64,000 nt of DNA, taken from NCBI RefSeq assembly GCF_000737535.1, contig NZ_CP006269.1:1860001-1924000 (forward strand). Reading direction: 5' to 3'. The stretch comes from Synechococcus sp. KORDI-100. Lineage in GTDB: Bacteria; Cyanobacteriota; Cyanobacteriia; PCC-6307; Cyanobiaceae. This document shows, piece by piece, positions 13,382 through 36,581 of this stretch. The notes under the pieces were generated by a model. The model did no database searches. It saw only the letters and a list, made by a program, of their open reading frames with translations, and was not told the DNA's origin. How positions within the stretch are numbered: the first letter of the stretch is position 1; every line of letters starts with the position of its first letter. The position numbers and the translations under genes were made by a program.

Positions 13382-13388
13382 CTGAGAA

Positions 13389-13446
13389 CGTTGGGTCTCC
13401 CAGGGAGGCCGCAGTCAGACCCAGGCCATGCAACGGGGGCCTGGGC
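13389..13446 (+). promoter_or_regulatory. Downstream-peptide (glutamine-riboswitch-like) RNA element 1
   Basis: P1: CGTTG (13389-13393) pairs with CAACG (13431-13435). P2: a 7-bp stem 13394-13400 with 13404-13410. A linker GCAGTCAGAC follows. CCCAGG (13420-13425) pairs with CCTGGG (13440-13445) across the P1 3' strand, forming a pseudoknot. The same architecture with compensating base changes occurs twice more in the window, each time before a YRG-repeat protein. The Downstream-peptide RNA class, known in Synechococcus and Prochlorococcus, binds glutamine. Confidence 0.8.
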
Positions 13447-20761: not shown

Positions 20762-20822
20762 GCCCAGGCCCCCGTTCCATGACCTGGGTCGTACTGCGCC
20801 TTGCCGGATAACAAGGTGAACG
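20762..20822 (-). promoter_or_regulatory. Downstream-peptide (glutamine-riboswitch-like) RNA element 2
   Basis: Minus strand: P1 CGTTC (20822-20818) with GAACG (20777-20773); P2 CCTTG (20816-20812) with CAAGG (20803-20799); linker GCGCAGTACGAC; pseudoknot CCCAGG (20788-20783) with CCTGGG (20768-20763). Base pairs differ from element 1 but pairing is kept. A short GTAG/CTAC hairpin lies just upstream (about 20828-20841), as in element 3. Confidence 0.82.
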
Positions 20823-21165
20823 TTTTAGTAGTCGTTGCTACGAAATATGGATAAACCGTGTCTGAATCCCCGGCAAGGTCTGGCCAGGAAGACGATGCAA
20901 ATTGTCAGACTGCCCGGCGATGAGAAGACAAGGGGTCTGTAAAAGCGGGTTGACAGGACGTCAAACCTCATGGGGTCCGTTCACAAATATCAAGCAACTA
21001 TCTACACAACATCTGCTGTACAGGTCAGAACGGAGGCTGGCTTATCGAAAGACCATTGAGTTGGCCATGGCTGCCGCGAAGAATCAACGCTGTGGAGCTG
21101 ACAACAATGCGGCCATCAATGATCAACAAGATTTACTGACAAGGTTTGCAAAGACATTCAATCCA
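20823..21165. other. intergenic, leader of the YRG gene on the left
   Basis: No gene recognised. On the minus strand TATCCATATTTC about 20845-20856 could hold the -10 of the riboswitch transcript. The rest shows only short chance frames. Confidence 0.35.
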
Positions 21166-24175: not shown

Positions 24176-24331
24176 TCAGATGGTCTGACTCGTGTCTCCA
24201 AATTCGAGATAGAGGCTTCTTGCATCCTCTGCACGCTCCTCATTGATCAATTCCTTCACCCGCTCCCTCCACCAGGAACTGACAACGGAACTGATTTCCT
24301 TGTTCGGAAGGCCACCAAAGGATTGGTCCAT
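24176..24331 (-). CDS. 51-aa small protein
   Basis: 51 residues: SVVSSWWRERVKELINEERA then DARSLYLEFGDTSQTI. Helical, acidic-basic mixed, with a WW pair; coding character is good. The stop lies inside the second copy of a 15-bp tandem duplication. Divergent from the ABC transporter operon. Unknown family. Confidence 0.55.
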   Translation of the reverse strand: MDQSFGGLPNKEISSVVSSWWRERVKELINEERAEDARSLYLEFGDTSQTI

Positions 24332-24525: not shown

Positions 24526-25530
24526 ATGACCAAACAGCTCCGAAATCTGCTCTTCGCAGGTCTGGCCATCCTCCTGGCTGTTGCCTGCTCGAAGACTCCC
24601 GATACCTCGGCTGTCAGTGGACCACCAATCGTGCTCGGCTACAGCAACTGGGCCGGTTGGTGGCCCTGGGCGATCGCTGTCGAGGAGAAGCTGTTCGAGA
24701 AAAACGGCGTGAACGTCGAGATGAAGTGGTTTGACGGGTACTTGCCATCGATGGAAACCTTTGCTGCCGGCAAAATTGATGGGAATTCCCAGACCCTCAA
24801 CGACACGATCTCCTTTCTTCCCGGAGAGAACGGTGGAGAGGTTGTGGTGTTGGTGAACGACAACTCCGCTGGCAACGACCAGATCATTGCCGATGCCTCG
24901 ATCAAGTCAGTGGAAGAGCTCAAAGGCAAAACCGTGGCCGTGGAAGAAGGGGTCGTGGACGATTACCTGCTCAGCCTGGCGCTCAAGGACGTTGGCCTCA
25001 GTCGCGACGACGTTGTGATCAAGGGCATGCCGACCGACCAGGCAGCAACGGCCTTTGCAGCTGGTCAGGTGGATGCGGTTGGCGCTTTCCCTCCTTACAC
25101 CGGAACTGCCATGCAACGTGAGGGAGCGCGGGTGATCGCGACCTCGAAGGAGTACCCCGGAGCAATCCCTGACCTCCTCACCGTGAGTGGCGATCTCATC
25201 AAGGAACGTCCCGATGACGTTCAGAAGATCGTCAAAACCTGGTGGGACGTCAGAGCATTCATGGACGAAAACCCTGAGAAGTCCGAGGAGATCATGGCGA
25301 AAAGGGCAGGGATCCCAACTGAGGAATACGAGCAGTACAAGGGTGGAACCCGCTTCTTCACTCTGGATGAAAACCTTGAAGCGTTCAGCTCTGGGGAAGG
25401 CATGCAGCACATGCCTTATGCAGCCGAATCCATGGCCGACTTCATGGTCTCCGTCGGCTTCATCGAGGAGAAACCGGACTTGAGCAGCCTGTTTGATTCC
25501 AGCTTCGTCAAGAAGGAAGCCGGCGCCTGA
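24526..25530 (+). CDS. NitT/TauT-type ABC transporter substrate-binding lipoprotein
   Basis: 334 residues. The leader ends in AVACS, so the Cys near residue 21 is the likely lipid anchor. The mature part is a type II periplasmic binding protein; 'GYSNWAGWWPWAIAVEEKLF' at about 38-57 and 'GKTVAVEEGVVDDYLL' near 145 are typical of the SsuA/TauA/NrtA-like group. Ligand unknown; the genes around it suggest an organic nitrogen or sulfonate-like compound. The stop overlaps the permease start by 1 bp (TGATG). Confidence 0.88.
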   Translation: MTKQLRNLLFAGLAILLAVACSKTPDTSAVSGPPIVLGYSNWAGWWPWAIAVEEKLFEKNGVNVEMKWFDGYLPSMETFAAGKIDGNSQTLNDTISFLPGENGGEVVVLVNDNSAGNDQIIADASIKSVEELKGKTVAVEEGVVDDYLLSLALKDVGLSRDDVVIKGMPTDQAATAFAAGQVDAVGAFPPYTGTAMQREGARVIATSKEYPGAIPDLLTVSGDLIKERPDDVQKIVKTWWDVRAFMDENPEKSEEIMAKRAGIPTEEYEQYKGGTRFFTLDENLEAFSSGEGMQHMPYAAESMADFMVSVGFIEEKPDLSSLFDSSFVKKEAGA

Positions 25531-26357
25531 TGAGCGCTTCGGCCCCTGCCGCTGCCCTTGAGAAAAAGCCTGGTGTTCTCTCCCTGCTCGCTCTTGGGGC
25601 AACGCCCTCAAGAGCTGTGAGGAGCGGACTTCAGGTTGCTTCACTGCTGCTCCCGTTGCTCGCCTGGACGGTGATCGCCGCTCTCGGCGTCGTCGATGAA
25701 AAATTCCTGCCCTCACCGGGGGCTGTTTATCGATCCCTCGCCTCGATGGCGCAAAGCGGCATCCTGTTTCAGGACATCGTTGCCAGCACAGGGCGGGTGT
25801 TCGCTGGGTTCCTGCTCGCCACCCTGGTGGCTGTGCCCATCGGCATCGGCATGGGTGTCTACCCAGCCATTTGCGCGCTCTGCGAGCCGCTCATCGCCAT
25901 GTTGCGATACATGCCGGCAGCGGCTTTTATTCCTCTTCTGATCATCTACCTGGGCATCGGTGAGGAACCGAAGATCGCTCTGATCTTTCTGGGCACGGTG
26001 TTTTTCAACATCCTGATGGTGATGGATTCAGTCAAGTTCGTTCCAAAGGAACTGATCGAAACAACCCTCACCCTGGGGGGCCGCAGCCGTCAGGTGCTCG
26101 TGCAGGTGGTGGCCCGCTACAGCATGCCGAGCATCATTGACACCCTGCGCATCAACATCGCCACGTCCTGGAATCTGGTCGTGGTCGCAGAACTTGTGGC
26201 GGCGGAGGTGGGTCTAGGGAAACGCATCCAGCTCGCTCAGCGTTTCTTCCGTACCGATCAGATCTTCGCTGAACTGATCGTGTTGGGTCTGATTGGCTTT
26301 GCGATCGATATGAGTTTCCGGCTGTTGCTTCGTCTGAGCTGCCGCTGGGCGGTGTAG
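25530..26357 (+). CDS. NitT/TauT-type ABC transporter permease
   Basis: 275 residues with about six hydrophobic segments. The EAA-like loop 'ETTLTLGGRSRQVLVQVVAR YSMP' followed by 'INIATSWNLVVVAELVAAE' is the classic signature of this permease family. Translationally coupled to the binding protein upstream, and 3 bp from the ATPase downstream. Confidence 0.9.
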   Translation: MSASAPAAALEKKPGVLSLLALGATPSRAVRSGLQVASLLLPLLAWTVIAALGVVDEKFLPSPGAVYRSLASMAQSGILFQDIVASTGRVFAGFLLATLVAVPIGIGMGVYPAICALCEPLIAMLRYMPAAAFIPLLIIYLGIGEEPKIALIFLGTVFFNILMVMDSVKFVPKELIETTLTLGGRSRQVLVQVVARYSMPSIIDTLRINIATSWNLVVVAELVAAEVGLGKRIQLAQRFFRTDQIFAELIVLGLIGFAIDMSFRLLLRLSCRWAV

Positions 26358-26360
26358 CGG

Positions 26361-27128
26361 ATGGAATTACTGGTCCAGCAGGTCGGTAAGCACTTCGGGG
26401 ACGGGCCTTCGCGCAAAACCGTCCTCGAAGGGATCAGCTTCCGGATGCAATCCGGAGATTTCACAGCCCTGGTGGGAAGCTCCGGTTCTGGCAAGAGCAC
26501 GATCCTGCGACTGATTGCCGGCCTTGATCAGCCCAGCAGCGGTCGGATCCTTGTGGACGGGAACGTGGTCGGTGGTCCAGGCCCGGACCGGGGAATGGTG
26601 TTTCAGAAATACAGCTTGTATCCCTGGCTCAATGCCGCCGACAACGTGGCCTTCGGGATGCGTCTGCAGGGGATGAAATCCAGGGAGATCCGAGAACGTA
26701 CGGCTTACTTCCTTGAGGTCGTGGGCTTGCAGGACGCCTCGTCCAAATTGCCTCGCGAACTGTCCGGCGGCATGCAGCAACGGGTCGCCATCGCACGCAC
26801 CCTGGCCACCAACCCCAGTGTGCTGCTGCTGGATGAACCATTCGGTGCCCTGGACCTGCAGATCAGAGAATCCATGCAGGATTTCCTGCTCCAGCTCTGG
26901 CAGCGCACAGGCCTGACCGTTCTCCTGATCACCCATGACGTGGAGGAAGCCCTGGTGCTTGCTCAGAACGTCCATGTGCTGGCCCCCAATCCAGGCCGGA
27001 TCATCCGTTCCCTGGACGTGAAGCTCGATAAAAGCGATCTCGATGAACTGCGGCTGAGCAGTGATTTTCAGCAGCTGCGCCGAAGCCTGTCCGCCAGCCT
27101 CAAGCAGCTGGAACCGACATTTCTGTGA
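26361..27128 (+). CDS. NitT/TauT-type ABC transporter ATPase
   Basis: 255 residues. Walker A GSSGSGKST, Q-loop MVFQKYSLYPWL, signature LSGGMQQR, Walker B SVLLLDEPFGALD and H-loop ITHDVEEA are intact. Same group as SsuB/TauB/NrtD. Overlaps the Rieske gene start by 4 bp (ATGA), so transport and oxygenase are made together. Confidence 0.92.
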   Translation: MELLVQQVGKHFGDGPSRKTVLEGISFRMQSGDFTALVGSSGSGKSTILRLIAGLDQPSSGRILVDGNVVGGPGPDRGMVFQKYSLYPWLNAADNVAFGMRLQGMKSREIRERTAYFLEVVGLQDASSKLPRELSGGMQQRVAIARTLATNPSVLLLDEPFGALDLQIRESMQDFLLQLWQRTGLTVLLITHDVEEALVLAQNVHVLAPNPGRIIRSLDVKLDKSDLDELRLSSDFQQLRRSLSASLKQLEPTFL

Positions 27129-28219
27129 TGCAGGCCCTCGAGAGTGAGAGCTTTCTTCCAGCCTGGCTTTACACCGAACCTGATGTTCATCGCTGGGACT
27201 GCAGCACCTATGCCGGGACGTACTGGCATCCCGTCACAGCCACATCTCAGCTTGCCCCTGGCCAGTGCCAGGCCATCAACCTTCTGGGACGGCCTCTCCT
27301 TCTGACAAGGCCAGGAGACGGAGAACCGCGAGCGTTCCTGAACCGTTGTCCCCACCGAGGCGTGGCCTTTCAGGACGAGAGCGACAACGGCCTGCCCTGC
27401 CGGCGTTTGATCTGCCCTTATCACGGCTGGACCTACAACCTGGAGGGAGAGTTGCTGGCGGCAGCCAGGGAACAGGACCTCCCGCAGCCGTTTCAGCGCA
27501 GGGACTGGCCCCTCACAGCGCTCCCCTGTCTCGTCGATGGCCCACTGATCTGGGTGGCGCTCAGCGACGAGCCTCGTCCTCTGACGCGACAGCTGGAACA
27601 GGTGCATCAGGAAGTGATGGCCCTGTGGACAAGCCCCATGAAGCAGGTGCATCAGATCCGACGCCGCCTGACTTGCAACTGGAAAGTCGCTCACGACAAC
27701 ACCCTCGACGACTATCACGTCGCGGTGGCCCATCCAACGACTCTGCACCGCGAGCAGGGGCCTGTGAAGGACTACGTGCACCGGTTCACGGAGTTCGGAA
27801 ATGTCCTGATCACACCCCATGCCGACGGCGGCCACTTTCATACGTTCGGCCTGCCTCCCTGGACGCACCTGATCACCTGGCCGGACGGGCGCATGGCGCT
27901 GTTGGAGTTCCTGCCGGAGAGCCACTGCACCACGGCGATGCAGTTGCGGTTGTTTGTCTCAGAGCAAAGCCGAGACGGCGGCGACGACGACCAGCGCGAC
28001 CAAGCGACGGACATCTGGCTCACCAGCCTGCTTGGCTTCCTGGAGGAAGACCGGAAACTGGTGGAATCAGCGCAGCGCGGCTACGAAAGCGGCATCATGC
28101 CAGGACCTGCCCACCGCCTGGAAGATCGGATCCTGCACTGGCAAAGAATCTACCGACAACAACTCCCGGGGTCTACAGACGCATCGTCGTCCGAAGCCAG
28201 GAGGTCATGGCAACGTTGA
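27125..28219 (+). CDS. Rieske non-heme iron oxygenase
   Basis: 364 residues. The Rieske [2Fe-2S] site is Cys75-His77 and Cys97-His100 (NRCPHRG, CPYHGWTY). The catalytic domain has VAHDNTLDDYHVAVAHP near 195-212, which supplies the Asp/His/His iron site and bridging Asp of the ring-hydroxylating/demethylating oxygenases. It resembles the choline monooxygenase and phthalate-type alpha subunits in plan. Electrons may come from a general ferredoxin and reductase, as no reductase gene is in the operon. Coupled to an ABC transporter, so it likely acts on the imported compound. Its end overlaps the convergent isomerase gene by 47 bp. Confidence 0.88.
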   Translation: MMQALESESFLPAWLYTEPDVHRWDCSTYAGTYWHPVTATSQLAPGQCQAINLLGRPLLLTRPGDGEPRAFLNRCPHRGVAFQDESDNGLPCRRLICPYHGWTYNLEGELLAAAREQDLPQPFQRRDWPLTALPCLVDGPLIWVALSDEPRPLTRQLEQVHQEVMALWTSPMKQVHQIRRRLTCNWKVAHDNTLDDYHVAVAHPTTLHREQGPVKDYVHRFTEFGNVLITPHADGGHFHTFGLPPWTHLITWPDGRMALLEFLPESHCTTAMQLRLFVSEQSRDGGDDDQRDQATDIWLTSLLGFLEEDRKLVESAQRGYESGIMPGPAHRLEDRILHWQRIYRQQLPGSTDASSSEARRSWQR

Positions 28220-29018
28220 TGGCGTCCACATCGGCGAGCGGTTCGGCGCTGAAGGGAACCGTCGGCATGTAGCCATCAGGCCCGAATTCCGGGGTGATCG
28301 TGATCGGATCAGCCTTCGAACCGCGGCGATCAAGAAACAACTGCCAACACAGACGATGGGCTTCCAGGGCTTCAGCCCATTCCGGGGCAAACGGGTGCGA
28401 AACCGAGGGACCTTGGGCATGCCCAACCCGGGCATGAATGTGATCGACATGACTTGCCATGGCCTGGATCGGCTTCAGGTCCGGCGTCATCAGGCGTTCG
28501 CTCACCGCGCACCAGTGGCTGAGATCGGCGGTGAGGCGCAGGCGGGGGTGCTGCTGGAGCCAGAAGGGCAACCGCCAGGGATTGAACAGACTGCGGCTCC
28601 GATGCGTCTCCAGCATCACCGGACAGGACACCTGCTCAAGGCGATCCAGCACCGCCTCAAGAAAATCGTTCTGTTCCGGGTCTGTCCAGCTATCGCTGCC
28701 GGTGATCAGGTTGATCTTCAGAGGCAGCAGCGGCCCTGCGCGATTCAGGGCTCGATCGAGCTGCTCGAGATGCTGGTCGGGACTGTCGCCGAGGTTGGGG
28801 GTGTAATCCCCGCCTGTGATGATTTCCAGGATCAGGGCCTGATCGAACCGACGCAGTGCCTCGAGCAGATCACTGGAGCTGACGGTTTCAAGGCAGGGAT
28901 GATCCAGGTTGATCTCGATGCCGTCAAAACCGGTTGCACCGGAACGTTGAAGGGCCTGATCGAAGGATCCGCGCCAACCCCAGAGTGTTTGGAACAGAAG
29001 AAGCTCAGTGGGACACAA
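28173..29018 (-). CDS. sugar-phosphate isomerase/epimerase-like TIM barrel
   Basis: 281 residues of the xylose isomerase-like/AP endonuclease family 2 fold. Metal-ligand candidates: Glu in GIEINLDHP, Glu-His in MLETHRSRSL, Asp-His in LTADLSHWC, His in HIHARVG, and Glu in ITPEFGP. It may process a product of the neighbouring Rieske oxygenase, but it is on the other strand, so the link is only by position. Confidence 0.82.
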   Translation of the reverse strand: MCPTELLLFQTLWGWRGSFDQALQRSGATGFDGIEINLDHPCLETVSSSDLLEALRRFDQALILEIITGGDYTPNLGDSPDQHLEQLDRALNRAGPLLPLKINLITGSDSWTDPEQNDFLEAVLDRLEQVSCPVMLETHRSRSLFNPWRLPFWLQQHPRLRLTADLSHWCAVSERLMTPDLKPIQAMASHVDHIHARVGHAQGPSVSHPFAPEWAEALEAHRLCWQLFLDRRGSKADPITITPEFGPDGYMPTVPFSAEPLADVDAINVAMTSWLRTTMRL

Positions 29019-29177: not shown

Positions 29178-29531
29178 GTGATCAACTCCATGATCCTTCT
29201 TCACTTCTTCGGACTCGGAGATGTACTGCGGCGTTTTGAACTTGAGCAGCTCACCGGCTTGAATCTGATGGGTTTCCGACCCGTCGCACTCGATGATCTT
29301 GTGATCTGGTCTCAGCGCGTAGCAGACCAACAACGCTGGGATGCCGATCGCATTCATCACGATGTTCTCAATCTCTGGATCGATCAGGCCGAAGAGATCA
29401 ATGTTTGGAAACAACGCCTAAAGCAATCACCTGCAAACGTTGAACTCCTGGCGGGTATCGGCGACGAACGCACCTGGCAGCAACACTGGGAGTGCATGCT
29501 GCGCCAGACCCCTCCGGGTGAGAGGGCCTGA
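29178..29531 (+). CDS. hypothetical protein
   Basis: GTG start at 29178 (117 residues) or ATG at 29190. Soluble, Trp-rich second half (LWIDQAEEINVWKQRLKQ; RTWQQHWECML). An antisense frame (29145-29414) is less convincing. Unrecognised. Confidence 0.5.
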   Translation: MINSMILLHFFGLGDVLRRFELEQLTGLNLMGFRPVALDDLVIWSQRVADQQRWDADRIHHDVLNLWIDQAEEINVWKQRLKQSPANVELLAGIGDERTWQQHWECMLRQTPPGERA

Positions 29532-29624: not shown

Positions 29625-29906
29625 TCAAGGAAGCTGGCTGATCACCCTGACATTCTCTTCCGGTTTGTAGCGCGACGTCCAGCGACGCAGCTGGGATTCC
29701 TCCTCGTCAGTTCGCGTGCAAGCAAATCCGTAGCGAGCACGAACTCGATCAGATGCTGCCCTCAATGCCTTCACACCGAGGGATTCAAGTTCAGAAACGC
29801 GGAACGAGTCGCCAGGTTTCAGATACTCCAATATCACCGTTGAGGGTGAATACAAGGTGCTGAATTGACCGTCAGGCCACTCCAGTTGAAAGCGAACTTC
29901 CGGCAT
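29625..29906 (-). CDS. MSMEG_0570 family nitrogen-starvation protein
   Basis: 93 residues beginning MPEVRFQLEWPDGQFSTLYS, with the typical following 'SPSTVILEYLKPGDSF' and 'ASDRVRARYGFACTR'. This small family occurs only with the Nit1C gene cluster and is named for a nitrogen-starvation link in mycobacteria. Biochemical role unknown. It is the last gene of the minus-strand cluster 29625-34184. Confidence 0.88.
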   Translation of the reverse strand: MPEVRFQLEWPDGQFSTLYSPSTVILEYLKPGDSFRVSELESLGVKALRAASDRVRARYGFACTRTDEEESQLRRWTSRYKPEENVRVISQLP

Positions 29907-29959
29907 GAGCCTGAAAAGTGATCACGAATCCTGCAATGGGGTCGTTCAACCCTGCTGTT

Positions 29960-30937
29960 TCAACTGGCACAGCCGAAGCCTGTCAGGCCAAGAGAGCCCT
30001 GCCAGAAACATTCAGACTCGCCAGCGCGCTCCAACTGAACCTGACAGGCTCCCTTGGCGAACCGTCCGATCCGGCAGCAGATCAGATCGGGATCGTCTCG
30101 CACCGACCGTTTGAGCCTGTCCGCGTGTGACGGGTCCACTGCCAGGAGGTACCCGAAGCTGGGAAAACAGGTCAGCCATGCCGTCTCCTCAACCTGATCC
30201 GGCCGTCGGATCAAATCTAGGTCGATGCTGAGTCCATGGCCGCAGGCTTCGGCAAACATCGCCGCTGTGCCCGTGATCCCCCCCATGCTGATGTCCTTGG
30301 CCGCATGAACGATCCCTGCCGAAGCCAGAGCTGGAAGCAGGCTGAGGTGGGAGCAAAGCGATTCTGAAGACGCCTTGGTCGCCGCATCCCAGAAGGGATA
30401 GTGGCGGTATAAGGATCCCTTCTGGTTCACCAGCATCCAGAGCTCATCGCCAGGACGTGCCGACCGGGCTGAGAGCACGGGGCCTTCGGCGACCCCCAGG
30501 ACAGCCACCGACAGAGCCCGGTACGGACTGTGCTGGTTGGAGTGCCCTCCCACCATGGGAATCGCGAAGCGATCGCAGGCGAATCGCATTCCAGCCAACA
30601 GCTCAGCCTGGGATTCCGGGCCCTGGCTCCAGACACTGTTCACCAGAGCCAGGGGACGTCCACCCATGGCGGCGATATCGCTGAGGTTCACCAGAACACC
30701 ACTCCAGCCTGCGAACCATGGGTCGTCCTCCACGAGGCCGGGATGCATGCCCTCGCAGGCCAGCAACAACTGACCGTTCTGGCGAGGCAACAGGGCTGCA
30801 TCGTCGCCCAGCATTCCAGCGGCCCCCAACTGCGGGAAGGGACGATGGGAAAACGCCTCCGCTGCAGGCTGGATGTCGCGCTTGGCAAGCAGACCGCTCT
30901 GCTGACGCAGCGCAGTCACCAACGGCCTGAGATTCAT
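29960..30937 (-). CDS. AIR synthase-related protein (Sll0787 family)
   Basis: 325 residues of the PurM/SelD/ThiL-like ATP-binding fold. 'LGDDAALLP' near 40 is the N-terminal Asp-Asp metal/nucleotide motif; GWSGVLVNLSDIAAMGGRP follows near 80, and KDISMGGITGTAAMF near 230. In Nit1C clusters this protein accompanies the GNAT protein. Reaction unknown, probably ATP-dependent activation of a substrate. It overlaps the GNAT gene by 4 bp. Confidence 0.87.
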   Translation of the reverse strand: MNLRPLVTALRQQSGLLAKRDIQPAAEAFSHRPFPQLGAAGMLGDDAALLPRQNGQLLLACEGMHPGLVEDDPWFAGWSGVLVNLSDIAAMGGRPLALVNSVWSQGPESQAELLAGMRFACDRFAIPMVGGHSNQHSPYRALSVAVLGVAEGPVLSARSARPGDELWMLVNQKGSLYRHYPFWDAATKASSESLCSHLSLLPALASAGIVHAAKDISMGGITGTAAMFAEACGHGLSIDLDLIRRPDQVEETAWLTCFPSFGYLLAVDPSHADRLKRSVRDDPDLICCRIGRFAKGACQVQLERAGESECFWQGSLGLTGFGCAS

Positions 30938-31602
30938 GCCGCGATGGGTGAGGCAAAGGTCCCGGCTGGTCGCAACTCCCTTGACGGGACGTAGTAGTCG
31001 AGGTCGGCCTGCATCAGGTGATGGCGAATGCCACGAATCTCGAGTTCCTCGATAGACGTCCAGTGCAGACGACGGAAGAAGCGCACATTCTGAATTTGAA
31101 CCGTGGCCAGAAAACGATCGCAGCCCCAGCCATTGGCGCTGGTGACAGCTTTCCAGATCAGGCCTTTGCCGATCTGGTTGTGACGTCGGAAATCGCTGTG
31201 TACCCCTAAGCGGCCTCCGTACCAGAGCCGTGGTTCGGTCTCAACGATCCGCACCACACCAACCACCTGAGCCTCGCCGTCGTCGTTGTCCTGCGGCTCG
31301 GAACTGTGATGCAACGCCGCGATCGGACAGGCGATGCGATCGAGCTCATCGCGATCAGAGTGTTCAAACACATGCTGTTCACGGCAGAAGATGCTGCGCC
31401 GCAGGGACCAGTAGCCACGGATCAGGGATGAATCCGGACGCAGCAAGTGAAACGTGAAGCGATCTGAGTGAGCGGTCGGCGAGAGGCGAAAGTCATCGGC
31501 ATCGATGCCGATGCCTCCACGGACTGAAGGGGTGAACAAACTGGGGGCGGAGCTGACGCTGCGACCGATGCCTCGGCTGCTCGGATCAAGACAGGACACC
31601 AT
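30934..31602 (-). CDS. MSMEG_0567/Sll0786 family N-acetyltransferase
   Basis: 222 residues of the GNAT fold. The acetyl-CoA region reads RLGVHSDFRRHNQIGKGLIW (R-x-x-Q-x-G-K-G/A type) near 150-170. The first 35 residues are Ser/Arg-rich and may be outside the native start. Substrate unknown. Sits 3 bp after the radical SAM gene. Confidence 0.87.
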   Translation of the reverse strand: MVSCLDPSSRGIGRSVSSAPSLFTPSVRGGIGIDADDFRLSPTAHSDRFTFHLLRPDSSLIRGYWSLRRSIFCREQHVFEHSDRDELDRIACPIAALHHSSEPQDNDDGEAQVVGVVRIVETEPRLWYGGRLGVHSDFRRHNQIGKGLIWKAVTSANGWGCDRFLATVQIQNVRFFRRLHWTSIEELEIRGIRHHLMQADLDYYVPSRELRPAGTFASPIAA

Positions 31603-31605
31603 GGT

Positions 31606-32697
31606 TCAGGTGCTCTGCTCAAACAGTGAGAGGGCCGAACAGGCTCCACACTTCGCACAACCAGCAGACATGCGCTCCGACCGGAGATCTCCCTGGCGCA
31701 ACAGCTCGGCAACCCCCTGGTAGACGTCAACCATGAATGAAGTGTCCGGCGAAGGATGGTTCTCCAGTGGAGTCCCGGAAATCGGCACAAAGGGGACAAC
31801 AAAGGGGTAAACACCAAGGTCAATCAGTCGACGGCTGCAGTCGAGGAGAGCATCCCGGCTGTCGCCCAACCCCGCCAACAGGTAGGTGGACACCTCCCCG
31901 CGCCCGAAAACAGCAACGGCATCGGCGAAAGCCTCGTAGTACCGCTCCAGACTCAGCTCAGACTTCCCAGGCAGAATGCGACGTCTCACCTCCGGCGAGA
32001 CCACTTCGAGGTGCATGCCCAGACTGTCGACCCCTGCCTGCTTCATGCGTCGATACCAGATCGGATCGTCCGGTGGCTCGCACTGGCCTTGAATCGGCAG
32101 ATCCACGCGCTGCTTGACGGCGGCGGCCGTCTCGGCCATCAAGCGAGCTCCACGGTCATCACTGTTGGGGGTGCCGGTCGTCATCACCAGCTGAGTGACG
32201 CCATCGAGACGCACGGCAGCCTCAGCCACCTCCGCCACCTGATCCGGGGTTTTGCGAACGACCGTGGAACCATCCTCAAGGGACTGCTCGATGGCACAGA
32301 ACTGACAGGACTGCGTGCGGTCCCGGAAGCGGATACAGGTCTGCAGCAGCGTGGTGGCCAGGACACTGCGGCTGTGCAGCAGAGCGATGGAGCGATAGGG
32401 CACGCCATCGGCCGTGCTCAGTCCGTAGAACGTCGGCTCATCGGTGGTCGTCACCGCAGGCAACGCCTCGTTCTGAGGGCCGCTCAGGGCGACCCCATCA
32501 CCAGATGCGTCGAGGCTGTAAGGCGAGAGGCTGGACGCATCGTTGTAAATCGGCACCATCACGGTGGTGCCATCAAGCTCAAGGGCGCGGTGGTCCGACG
32601 GACCTGCACCGCCTCGCCGCCCCCGGTTCCCCTTGAGGGATCCATCGCGAAGACCCTTGACCTGAAGTTCGGTCACGACACGGCCCAGCTCAGACAT
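31606..32697 (-). CDS. MSMEG_0568 family radical SAM protein
   Basis: 363 residues. The radical SAM cluster ligands are in '[16 protein letters not shown]', with the first Cys spaced nine residues from the last pair rather than the standard three, as seen in this family. A second Cys-rich end (CAKCGACS) may bind another cluster. The gene overlaps the nitrilase start by 8 bp. Reaction not known. Confidence 0.87.
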
Positions 32698-33682
32698 GGT
32701 TCAACTCCTCGATCGCACGGCCCAACTCAACGGCTGGAGAAGGTTGCAGCTCCGATGGCATCTCCTGCATCGTCATCGCAGGCGAGCTGTTGATGCGGAG
32801 CGACAGCAACTCCGGACGGCTGTAGTGGCCGACGCTGTCCATCATTCGCTTGCGTTTGGTGATCAGGGCCAGATCCAGCTCCGCAATGGCGAGGCCCTCG
32901 CCGTCCGGAAGCGGTCCAGCCAGATAACGGCCCTCCGGACTGATCACCGCGGTGTGGCATCCGCCCTGAAAGGCCTTGTGAAGCGACGTATCCGGTGTGA
33001 TCGCCCCATAGTCCTCGGGATCCAGCCATCCTGTGGAGCAGATCACAAAACAGCCGGCCTCCAGGGCGTGGTGCCGCATGGTTACGGCCGTCTGCTCCGT
33101 GAAGATCGGTCCCACGAGGGAGCCGGGAAACTGGGCGCAGTGAAGCTGCTCCCCCTGGGCCATCAGGGCGTAGCGAGCGAGGGGGTTGTAGTGCTCCCAG
33201 CAAGCCAGGGCACCGACACGACCCAGAGGGGTGGTGACAACCTTCAGTCCGGCGCCATCTCCCTGTCCCCACACCATCCTCTCGTGGTAAGTCGGGGTGA
33301 TCTTGCGCCGTTTGAGGACGATCTCACCACAGCTGTTGAATAACAGCTGCGTGTTGTAAAGGGTGCCTCCATCGCGTTCGTTGACGCCCAGCAGAACCTG
33401 CATGCCGTGTTGGCGTGCCGCTGCTGCAACGGCGTCAGTGACAGGACCGGGAACCACCACCGCCTGCTCATAGAGAGCAAGGTGCGGACGACCCATCCGC
33501 ACAGGGGGCTCGACGAAGGAGAAATAGGGGTAATAGGGGAGAAACGTCTCGGGGAAGACGATCAACTCGACGCCTTCGGCCGCCGCATCGGCCATGGCAT
33601 CGAGCACCTTCTGAAGGGACCCGTCCAGGCTGAAAAGCACAGGACGGATCTGGGCAGCGGCAACTTTGACGGTGGTCACCAT
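32690..33682 (-). CDS. nit1: Nit1-type nitrilase (Nit6803 family)
   Basis: 330 residues. The carbon-nitrogen hydrolase triad is complete: Glu45 ([12 protein letters not shown]), Lys127 ([11 protein letters not shown]) and Cys161 ([11 protein letters not shown]). It hydrolyses nitriles to carboxylate plus ammonia. In other bacteria the Nit1C cluster is needed for growth on cyanide as nitrogen source. Central gene of the cluster here. Confidence 0.92.
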
Positions 33683-33701
33683 GGTGAGGTCCGGTGCTGA
33701 C

Positions 33702-34184
33702 TCAGAGCGTCCAGGTCTCGAGGATGAAGGCTCCTTCCTTGCGATGCATCAACACGATGTCGAGGACATCCAGAGGGTTGACCGGAGTGATGCCTGGCAT
33801 CAAAGCCTTTTCGCTGTGTCCGTAGAGGGCCTGCAGAGCGAAGCGGCAGGCGTAGACCTTGCCACCCTGATCCATGAATTTCTGCAGACGGGCATTGAAG
33901 TTCAGATGGCCGTCAAACGCCGCGTCACCAAGCTTGGGAAAACCACGCATCACACCCAGCGTCACGCCCGGGCCGTAGAGAAGAACGGAGGTCTCGAAGC
34001 CTTTGTTGATCAGACGACTGGCCTGAAGCAGGTTGACCAGACCGATCGACCCTTCAAATGCCACGGTGTGAAAGGTCACCAACGCCTTCTCACCTGGATC
34101 CGCCTTCACATCAGGAAAAACTTTCTCCTCGTAGTCGACGAGAAAATCTCCGGGCTGATTAGCGGGGCGATCGACAACTGGCAT
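33702..34184 (-). CDS. MSMEG_0572/Sll0783 family nitrogen-starvation protein
   Basis: 160 residues, DsrE/F-like alpha/beta pattern: [20 protein letters not shown], then '[20 protein letters not shown]', and Cys in [11 protein letters not shown]. In Synechocystis the homologue Sll0783 is induced by nitrogen starvation and required for polyhydroxybutyrate formation. It is first in the minus-strand operon, 20 bp before the nitrilase. I looked for a GTA-N8-TAC NtcA site in the 170-bp upstream gap and found none. Confidence 0.9.
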
Positions 34185-34358
34185 GTGAAGAAAGGCTAAG
34201 AACCCAAACCATGGCCTTGGTCACCATTCAAAAAATGTTCCTGATGCAACCGAATCAGGCATCGAAACCCACGGGTCTGCGTTGATTTTCGTGCCCATGA
34301 CTACATCACGACGGCTTGCTTTCCCTGATGGTTAAAAAGGCAAATTCTGAGCTGATTG

Positions 34359-35669
34359 ATGCTGAACAGTGCGTCGCACAGCACAACCGCCAGGTCATCA
34401 CATTCAGTTGTCGTCATCGGCGCTGGGCAGGCTGGCTTGTCTGTGACCTACGCCCTTCAGCAGCGCGGCATCCGTCCCCTGGTTCTCGAGAAACATCGCA
34501 TCGGCTACGCCTGGGACCAGCAACGATGGGATTCCTTCTGCCTGGTGACGCCCAACTGGCAGTGCCGTCTACCGGACTTCCCTTACGACGGCGACCAGCC
34601 GGAGGGGTTCATGGACAAACACTCGATCGTGAACTTCCTGCAACGGTTTGCCAGACATGTGGCGGGGGATGTGAGAGAGGGCGTTGCCGTGCAACGGCTG
34701 ACGCCGAATGGTCATGGTTACCGCCTGATTACCAGTGAAGGAGAGATCGAGGCCGAGCAGATCGTTGTGGCCACCGGTGGTTACCACCAACCACGGAGGC
34801 ATCCCCTGGCCGAAAGGCTCCCAGGCTCGATCCTTCAGCTTGATGCACGGGATTACCGCAACCCTGACGCCTTGCCGCCGGGACCGGTCCTGGTGGTGGG
34901 AAGTGGTCAGTCCGGAAGCCAGATTGCCGAGGATCTTTTTCTGGCCGGAAGAACCGTGCATCTGAGTGTGGGAAGCGCTCCACGTTCACCACGCCGATAC
35001 CGAGGCCGAGACGTCGTCGATTGGCTCGATCGCATGGGCTACTACTCGATGCCGATCAGCGAACATGCAGACCCGCGCAGCGTTCGCGCCAAAACGAATC
35101 ACTACCTCACCGGTCGCGATGGGGGGCGCGAGATCGATCTGCGACGTCGAGCTCTCGAGGGAATGCAGCTGCACGGCCGACTCGGCGAGATCACTGCAGA
35201 ACACCTTGGCTTTGCCAACGACCTTGGTGACAGCCTTGACCAGGCCGATGCGGTGTATTGCCGTATTCGCAGCAGCATTGACAGCTGGATCCAACAGGAA
35301 CAGATCGAGGCCCCACTTGAGCCGGCCTACTCACCTTGCTGGCAGCCGACACCGAAGCCGGATCCCGGACTCGATCTCCGAACGGATCCATTGGCAGCCG
35401 TGATCTGGTGCACCGGGTACCGCAGTGATTTCAGCTGGATCGATGCGCCGGTCTTCGACGGTGCCGGCCAACCCGCCCATGATCGAGGGGTGACCCAGAG
35501 CGCAGGCCTTTATTTTCTGGGACTTCCCTGGCTCAACACCTGGGGCTCAGGTCGCTTTTGCGGTGTTAAAGACGATGCGGACTACCTGGCCAGACTGATC
35601 AGCCTGCGGCTGGAACGTCGTGACGCCAGCCAGGAACGGCTGGAATGCACAGCCATTCTCGGCTCCTGA
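34359..35669 (+). CDS. MSMEG_0569 family flavin-dependent oxidoreductase
   Basis: 436 residues from ATG 34359. FAD motif VVVIGAGQAGLSVTYALQ near 20-38, NADPH-type Rossmann motif VLVVGSGQSGSQIAEDL near 180. It belongs to the flavin monooxygenase-like group found in Nit1C clusters. Divergent from the rest of the cluster across a 174-bp gap. Probably oxygenates or oxidises the substrate before nitrilase action; not proven. Confidence 0.88.
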   Translation: MLNSASHSTTARSSHSVVVIGAGQAGLSVTYALQQRGIRPLVLEKHRIGYAWDQQRWDSFCLVTPNWQCRLPDFPYDGDQPEGFMDKHSIVNFLQRFARHVAGDVREGVAVQRLTPNGHGYRLITSEGEIEAEQIVVATGGYHQPRRHPLAERLPGSILQLDARDYRNPDALPPGPVLVVGSGQSGSQIAEDLFLAGRTVHLSVGSAPRSPRRYRGRDVVDWLDRMGYYSMPISEHADPRSVRAKTNHYLTGRDGGREIDLRRRALEGMQLHGRLGEITAEHLGFANDLGDSLDQADAVYCRIRSSIDSWIQQEQIEAPLEPAYSPCWQPTPKPDPGLDLRTDPLAAVIWCTGYRSDFSWIDAPVFDGAGQPAHDRGVTQSAGLYFLGLPWLNTWGSGRFCGVKDDADYLARLISLRLERRDASQERLECTAILGS

Positions 35670-36517: not shown

Positions 36518-36521
36518 CAAA

Positions 36522-36581
36522 CGTTCACTCCGCACCTCGCGGAGCGCAGTTCGACTCAGGCCATGGAACGGGGACCTGAGC
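36522..36581 (+). promoter_or_regulatory. Downstream-peptide (glutamine-riboswitch-like) RNA element 3
   Basis: P1 CGTTC (36522-36526) with GAACG (36566-36570); P2 CTCCGC (36528-36533) with GCGGAG (36539-36544); linker GCGCAGTTCGAC; pseudoknot CTCAGG (36555-36560) with CCTGAG (36575-36580). It is 20 nt before the YRG-repeat gene. Switching may act on the ribosome site (AGGAACC) directly after the pseudoknot. Confidence 0.82.

Follow-up and report, generated by a model that had tools for sequence, protein, structure and literature searches.

Transport genes of a split guanidine operon in Synechococcus sp. KORDI-100, with a Rieske oxygenase and TIM-barrel pair that may release guanidine from alkylguanidines

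In the cyanobacterium Synechocystis PCC 6803, the operon sll1077-sll1082 encodes a nickel guanidinase, the nickel chaperones HypA and HypB, and an importer of the SsuA/TM/NrtD type, and is preceded by a guanidine-I riboswitch. According to PMC10119275, the guanidine cluster of marine picocyanobacteria likewise comprises a guanidinase, hypA/hypB and a TauABC-like importer, and a putative Rieske gene lies downstream in most of the Synechococcus and Cyanobium genomes having it. In a more distant system, that of Vreelandella boliviensis, the enzyme MgdH hydroxylates methylguanidine, and MgdL splits the unexpectedly stable N-(hydroxymethyl)guanidine (PMC12508155). Here we describe a five-gene unit from Synechococcus sp. 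KORDI-100, contained in a window of 64,000 nucleotides (contig NZ_CP006269.1, positions 1,860,001 to 1,924,000). Three genes for an ATP-binding cassette (ABC) importer are followed by a Rieske oxygenase gene and, on the opposite strand, by a gene for a TIM-barrel protein (triosephosphate isomerase-type barrel). A first-pass annotation had joined these genes to a neighbouring Nit1C cluster in one path, in which an imported organic nitrogen compound would be oxidised and its nitrogen released via Nit1. We propose, at a probability of roughly 0.6, that these genes form one half of a guanidine operon, the half for transport and accessory functions, and that the Rieske/TIM pair yields guanidine from an alkylguanidine.

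The order of the four forward-strand genes is not a matter of chance, because it recurs in further genomes throughout the family Cyanobiaceae. A protein search in 201 genomes of the family gave an orthologue of the Rieske protein in 49, KORDI-100 included, and the surroundings of the gene were fetched from the 48 other family genomes and from 80 named loci (128 in all, the two sets partly overlapping). Wherever enough contig was present, a gene for a GdmH-type guanidinase lies upstream on the same strand (44 of 44 family loci and 67 of 67 named loci), and the Rieske and GdmH proteins occur together in 48 of the 49 genomes, the exception being a 4-kb contig. The operon of the relatives reads guanidine-I riboswitch, gdmH, hypA, hypB, binding protein, permease, ATPase, Rieske. 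Nine loci of relatives were scanned for the riboswitch: in eight it exceeded the gathering score directly before gdmH, and in the ninth, L074, none did. The KORDI-100 binding protein is 89-91% identical to those in the gdm operons of its nearest relatives, and its position is orthologous to that of sll1080. We are therefore nearly certain that the four genes, with the TIM gene, are the 3' part of the cyanobacterial guanidine operon. Compared with the Synechocystis operon, the picocyanobacterial form adds the Rieske and TIM-barrel genes, and in KORDI-100 the operon is also split and a riboswitch was not found. The unit is the same locus as the guanidine eCAG with Rieske CK_00002251 of PMC10119275, so that the gene combination, which the first-pass annotation did not know as a described pathway, was in part already on record; the accessible text of that paper gives the Rieske no function beyond iron use and mentions neither the TIM gene nor a split arrangement. 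Many freshwater loci add a type III glutamine-synthetase-like gene ahead of the binding protein. In L035 (5526-6875) and similar freshwater loci, this gene, resembling type III glutamate-ammonia ligases, stands between hypB and the binding protein; its best match in the PDB is a glutamate-methylamine ligase (9QUR), which might indicate methylated amines.

In KORDI-100, the riboswitch and gdmH-hypA-hypB are missing from the site in the window. The gdmH gene (396 aa) lies at genome positions 1723140-1724327, about 160 kb from the unit, with hypA and hypB behind it; hypB is at 1722076-1722759, and HypA was located in L065 by tblastn. Genes such as that for 6-phosphogluconate dehydrogenase adjoin the displaced set. 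The best PDB match of this GdmH is the Synechocystis guanidinase (7ESR/7OI1, 769 bits), and in the alignment it retains the two residues, Thr and Trp, on which guanidine specificity is reported to depend. No guanidine-I riboswitch was found in the window, in the KORDI-100 genome or beside the displaced gdmH, even with permissive settings. A trace of the separation may be a small open reading frame (ORF) of 51 aa ahead of the binding protein. Its relatives (51-72% identity) in L089, L090, L072 and L091 always stand just outside the operon on its gdmH side, and the distance from it to the binding protein is 195 bp in KORDI-100 as against 2.66 kb in L089. On this comparison the ORF marks the edge of a missing segment, whose length fits riboswitch-gdmH-hypA-hypB. 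The 1.6 kb preceding the binding protein showed no remnants of gdmH, hypA or hypB beyond chance, and the 51-aa gene is the only recognisable one there. The displaced set may have been moved or may be a replacement. Quick, weakly resolved trees were made for GdmH, HypB and the binding protein. In these, the KORDI-100 binding protein falls among its marine kin, and HypB stands apart from its own on a long branch; this contrast would fit either a replacement or a fast change of gdmH-hypA-hypB. Exact NtcA boxes (GTA-N8-TAC) were absent from short stretches upstream of the binding protein, around TIM/nitG and nitB/nitH, and at gdmH, and a scan for promoters and terminators gave signals no more frequent than chance. 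With riboswitch and front genes gone from the site, the unit might be thought a decaying orphan. However, all five genes are intact, the window copies are under purifying selection (pN/pS, the ratio of nonsynonymous to synonymous change, 0.09-0.42, matching comparisons among relatives), and a full gdmH-hypA-hypB set is still in the genome, and we consider decay very unlikely.

The Rieske and TIM genes behave as a pair. They co-occur almost one to one across the 201 family genomes. The TIM gene is downstream of the Rieske gene in 38 loci of the family; in eight it lies past gdmH, at the other end of the operon. In about a third of gdmH loci, both genes are absent and the transporter is the same. 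Of 20 gdmH loci taken from genomes lacking a Rieske orthologue, all but one, a short contig, share the importer genes (19 loci); an intact TIM gene was present in none of the 20 and a broken copy in one. Judged by gene content, the Rieske and TIM genes are a paired, dispensable accessory of gdmH loci. In Aphanocapsa feldmannii (L087) the TIM gene is broken and the Rieske retained (L069/L087), and in G035 (L174) the Rieske is missing and the TIM gene broken. Across relatives, protein-level change is about fourfold quicker in the Rieske and TIM (pN/pS about 0.4 and 0.33) than in the binding protein (0.09-0.10).

Rieske homologues also occur in other cyanobacteria beyond the family. In G201, G225 and G336 the homologue stands at the end of a gdmH operon. 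In G279 and G246 it stands beside the importer and a guanidine-I riboswitch, at a locus that also contains genes for UAAP1/UAAP2, a urea-carboxylase-type enzyme and allophanate hydrolase; this gene set corresponds to the guanidine carboxylase route (PMC12508155), and no GdmH match was obtained in the genomes of G279, G246 and G289. In G292, and in G358 and its kin (where GdmH is elsewhere in the genome), the Rieske gene is near guanidine riboswitches or guanidine genes. Because the Rieske is found with two guanidine-degrading routes, it would, on the simplest view, either make guanidine or act on an imported precursor; in other words, it probably acts before guanidine in the pathway. A different view is that the Rieske forms no guanidine at all, and serves to handle some other compound entering through this importer or as a defence against a toxic analogue. 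The dispensability of the Rieske/TIM pair and its rapid change would agree with such a role, but the stability of the Rieske in guanidine loci across the cyanobacterial class, with both degradation routes, speaks against it, and we regard it as unlikely. Several of these homologues have further features of their own. In genus g133 (L202-L205, L213), glutamine-synthetase-like, ABC and Rieske genes follow one another, and gdmH is found elsewhere in the genome; a guanidine-I riboswitch heads this row in L202, the only one of these loci scanned. A MetX-like alpha/beta-hydrolase gene lies directly behind the Rieske gene in L209 (3730-4725), and sequence inspection shows MetX-like genes beside the Rieske in L206 and L210 too. 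Cysteine takes the place of the bridging aspartate (see below) in the Rieske proteins of L200, L202, L206, L207, L209, L211 and L212.

By family search, the Rieske protein of the window has a Rieske domain and a ring-hydroxylating catalytic domain. Alignment assigns the cluster ligands to C75, H77, C97 and H100, the iron triad to H198, H203 and D309, and the bridging aspartate to D195, and all of these residues are conserved in the picocyanobacterial set. Its structural model (predicted local distance difference test score, pLDDT, 89) has its best fold matches in carnitine monooxygenase CntA and stachydrine demethylase, both N-demethylating, single-subunit Rieske oxygenases acting on a carbon beside nitrogen. 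The window protein differs from these in its low identity to them (about 21-24%) and in having no dedicated reductase gene nearby; it is not GbcA, because it scores 87 bits against a curated GbcA equivalog cut-off of 670. The lack of a reductase in the unit, already pointed out in the first-pass annotation, is real, since KORDI-100 has a single gene above the NAD_binding_1 cut-off, at 1.117 Mb. This gene is presumably the photosynthetic ferredoxin-NADP reductase, and ferredoxin is for this reason the likely electron donor. The TIM protein itself has no Pfam match, and 13 of 27 aligned relatives match PF01261. A single-sequence search of the PDB with it gave no match, and fold comparison was therefore used: its model (pLDDT 92) is an alpha/beta barrel matching xylose-isomerase-like epimerases, isomerases and endonuclease IV. 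The invariant residues E137, D165, H168, H195 and E244 form a putative metal site.

From these observations, the following scheme of oxidative N-dealkylation may be drawn. The ABC importer would take up guanidine and, probably, small alkylguanidines. The Rieske oxygenase, fed by photosynthetic ferredoxin, would hydroxylate the carbon adjoining a guanidine nitrogen, with methylguanidine as the first candidate substrate. The TIM barrel would assist the breakage of the hydroxylated intermediate or process the aldehyde, and the freed guanidine would be converted to urea and ammonia by nickel-loaded GdmH. The parts of this scheme are not equally secure: the chances that the Rieske acts on an alkylguanidine upstream of guanidine seem about even, methylguanidine as the specific substrate is a tentative choice, and a role of the TIM protein as N-(hydroxymethyl)guanidine lyase is more doubtful still. 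The precedent is the Vreelandella pair, where an oxygenase and a second protein have also been added to a riboswitch-controlled guanidine operon. However, MgdH belongs to the 2-oxoglutarate/Fe(II) dioxygenases and the model of MgdL has a beta-barrel, whereas the oxygenase of the window is a Rieske protein and its partner a TIM barrel of alpha/beta type; the Rieske/TIM pair could at most be an analogue of a different make.

Several observations weigh against our proposal. In Prochlorococcus, the loci include a Rieske gene (37-39% identity) but no TIM gene, and G054 has the Rieske without this TIM family. The bridging aspartate, three residues before the first iron histidine, is a cysteine in wider cyanobacterial homologues. 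Nothing in the transporter points to a special substrate, because Rieske-free GdmH loci have the same one, and the guanidine-I riboswitch of Vreelandella does not sense methylguanidine (PMC12508155). In addition, class III alcohol dehydrogenase, a sink for formaldehyde, was not found in the KORDI-100 genome, and a formaldehyde-releasing reaction is less favoured for that reason. This last point leads to another explanation, that the Rieske and TIM proteins act on a larger guanidino compound, such as guanidinoacetate, guanidinobutyrate or taurocyamine, from which guanidine would be split off; the other product, an aldehyde or oxo acid, would then be isomerised by the TIM protein. No formaldehyde would then be formed, the position of the Rieske upstream of guanidine would be equally well explained, and the likeness of the TIM protein to sugar and keto-acid isomerases would find a reason; 2-oxoglutarate dioxygenases are known to free guanidine from arginine and homoarginine in this way. 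On the other hand, these substrates are putative, and no aldehyde-processing gene was seen in the conserved operon. We think a larger substrate improbable, and prefer release of guanidine from an alkylguanidine.

What, then, is the relation to Nit1C? The cluster is complete, all seven genes nitB-nitH exceeding their NCBIfam cut-offs, and it begins 607 bp past the TIM gene, with a 117-aa ORF in between. The first-pass annotation had described this spacing, the tight packing of the four forward genes and the convergent TIM gene correctly, as the ORF coordinates confirm. Its idea that the unit imports and oxidises an organic nitrogen compound, with the TIM gene close by, also holds; the step through Nit1 does not. 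Nit1C lies beside only one of the 128 other fetched Rieske loci, and the constant partner of the Rieske is GdmH with HypA/HypB. The two modules, whose linkage in related genomes the annotation had made the test of its proposal, are thus not generally linked. They are closely linked in three genomes of the genus of the window, in three different layouts: Nit1C follows TIM in KORDI-100, lies between Rieske and TIM in G112, and in G147 is found on the gdmH side at a distance of 12.5 kb. In G162 and G141 they are 376 kb and 992 kb apart, respectively, and none of the 80 named loci has Nit1C genes. Among the 49 Rieske genomes, 25 have nitC and 24 do not, and ten nitC genomes have no Rieske; within GdmH genomes the association of Rieske and nitC is weak (p = 0.03, uncorrected for kinship). 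The proximity in these three genomes, and a tendency of both modules to share the same larger genomes, are what can be said for oxidation by the Rieske followed by release of nitrogen through Nit1. Against it stand the variable layouts, the many genomes with one module alone, and the link of Nit1C with cyanide use in other bacteria described in the literature, and such a pathway can hardly be right. In L072 and L090, both without Nit1C, the TIM gene adjoins the 117-aa ORF, an arrangement that fits a later arrival of Nit1C. We read the site as a gathering place of nitrogen modules in the genome, rather than as a pathway, with Nit1C as a separate module adjoining the guanidine unit. The coordinates of the unit and its neighbours are collected in Table 1.

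Table 1. The guanidine unit of Synechococcus sp. KORDI-100 and its neighbours (positions within the window)
Feature	Position	Strand	Remark
SsuA-type ABC binding protein	24526..25530	+	position orthologous to sll1080
ABC permease, TauC/SaoP-type	25530..26357	+	1 base in common with binding protein
ABC ATPase, NrtCD/TauB-like	26361..27128	+	3-base gap after permease
Rieske oxygenase	27125..28219	+	4-base overlap with ATPase
Xylose-isomerase-like TIM-barrel gene	28173..29018	-	convergent; 3' end overlaps Rieske by 47 bases
51-aa ORF	24179..24331	-	flanks riboswitch/gdmH side of guanidine operon in four relatives
117-aa conserved ORF	29178..29531	+	neighbour, between TIM gene and Nit1C
nitG, nitF, nitE, nitD, nitC, nitB	29625..34184	-	Nit1C; neighbour, outside unit
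nitH, flavin-dependent oxidoreductase	34356..35669	+	Nit1C; neighbour, outside unit

Two further observations concern the window and the records used. Three glutamine-II riboswitches are present in the window, at 13386-13445 (+), 20763-20825 (-) and 36519-36580 (+), and others of this class precede the guanidine riboswitch by about 0.9-3.7 kb in L068, L071 and L089. The records of L093 and L133 are titled Acidiferrobacteraceae and Bifidobacterium breve and have picocyanobacterial guanidine loci; they are probably mis-binned contigs of metagenome-assembled genomes.

The operon, and the Rieske gene within it, are already published (PMC10119275). In the literature searched, we did not find the class-wide tie of the Rieske to both guanidine routes, its pairing with TIM, the split in KORDI-100 or the proposed reaction. 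A widespread Rieske gene that the same literature leaves unexplained thereby gains a testable role and a TIM-barrel partner, and the guess at the substrate of the unit shifts from nitriles to guanidino compounds. KORDI-100 is also an example of a split riboswitch operon whose parts are still under purifying selection. If the proposed reaction is true, the problem that MgdH/MgdL solve would have been solved a second time by unrelated proteins, the Rieske and TIM pair. More broadly, we speculate, with less than even confidence, that picocyanobacteria, including Prochlorococcus, demethylate or dealkylate guanidines by a ferredoxin-driven Rieske oxygenase, often aided by a TIM-barrel hemiaminal lyase, and so draw on methylated guanidines as a marine nitrogen source. 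Such N-dealkylation would predict a pool of alkylguanidines used by abundant phototrophs of oceans and lakes.

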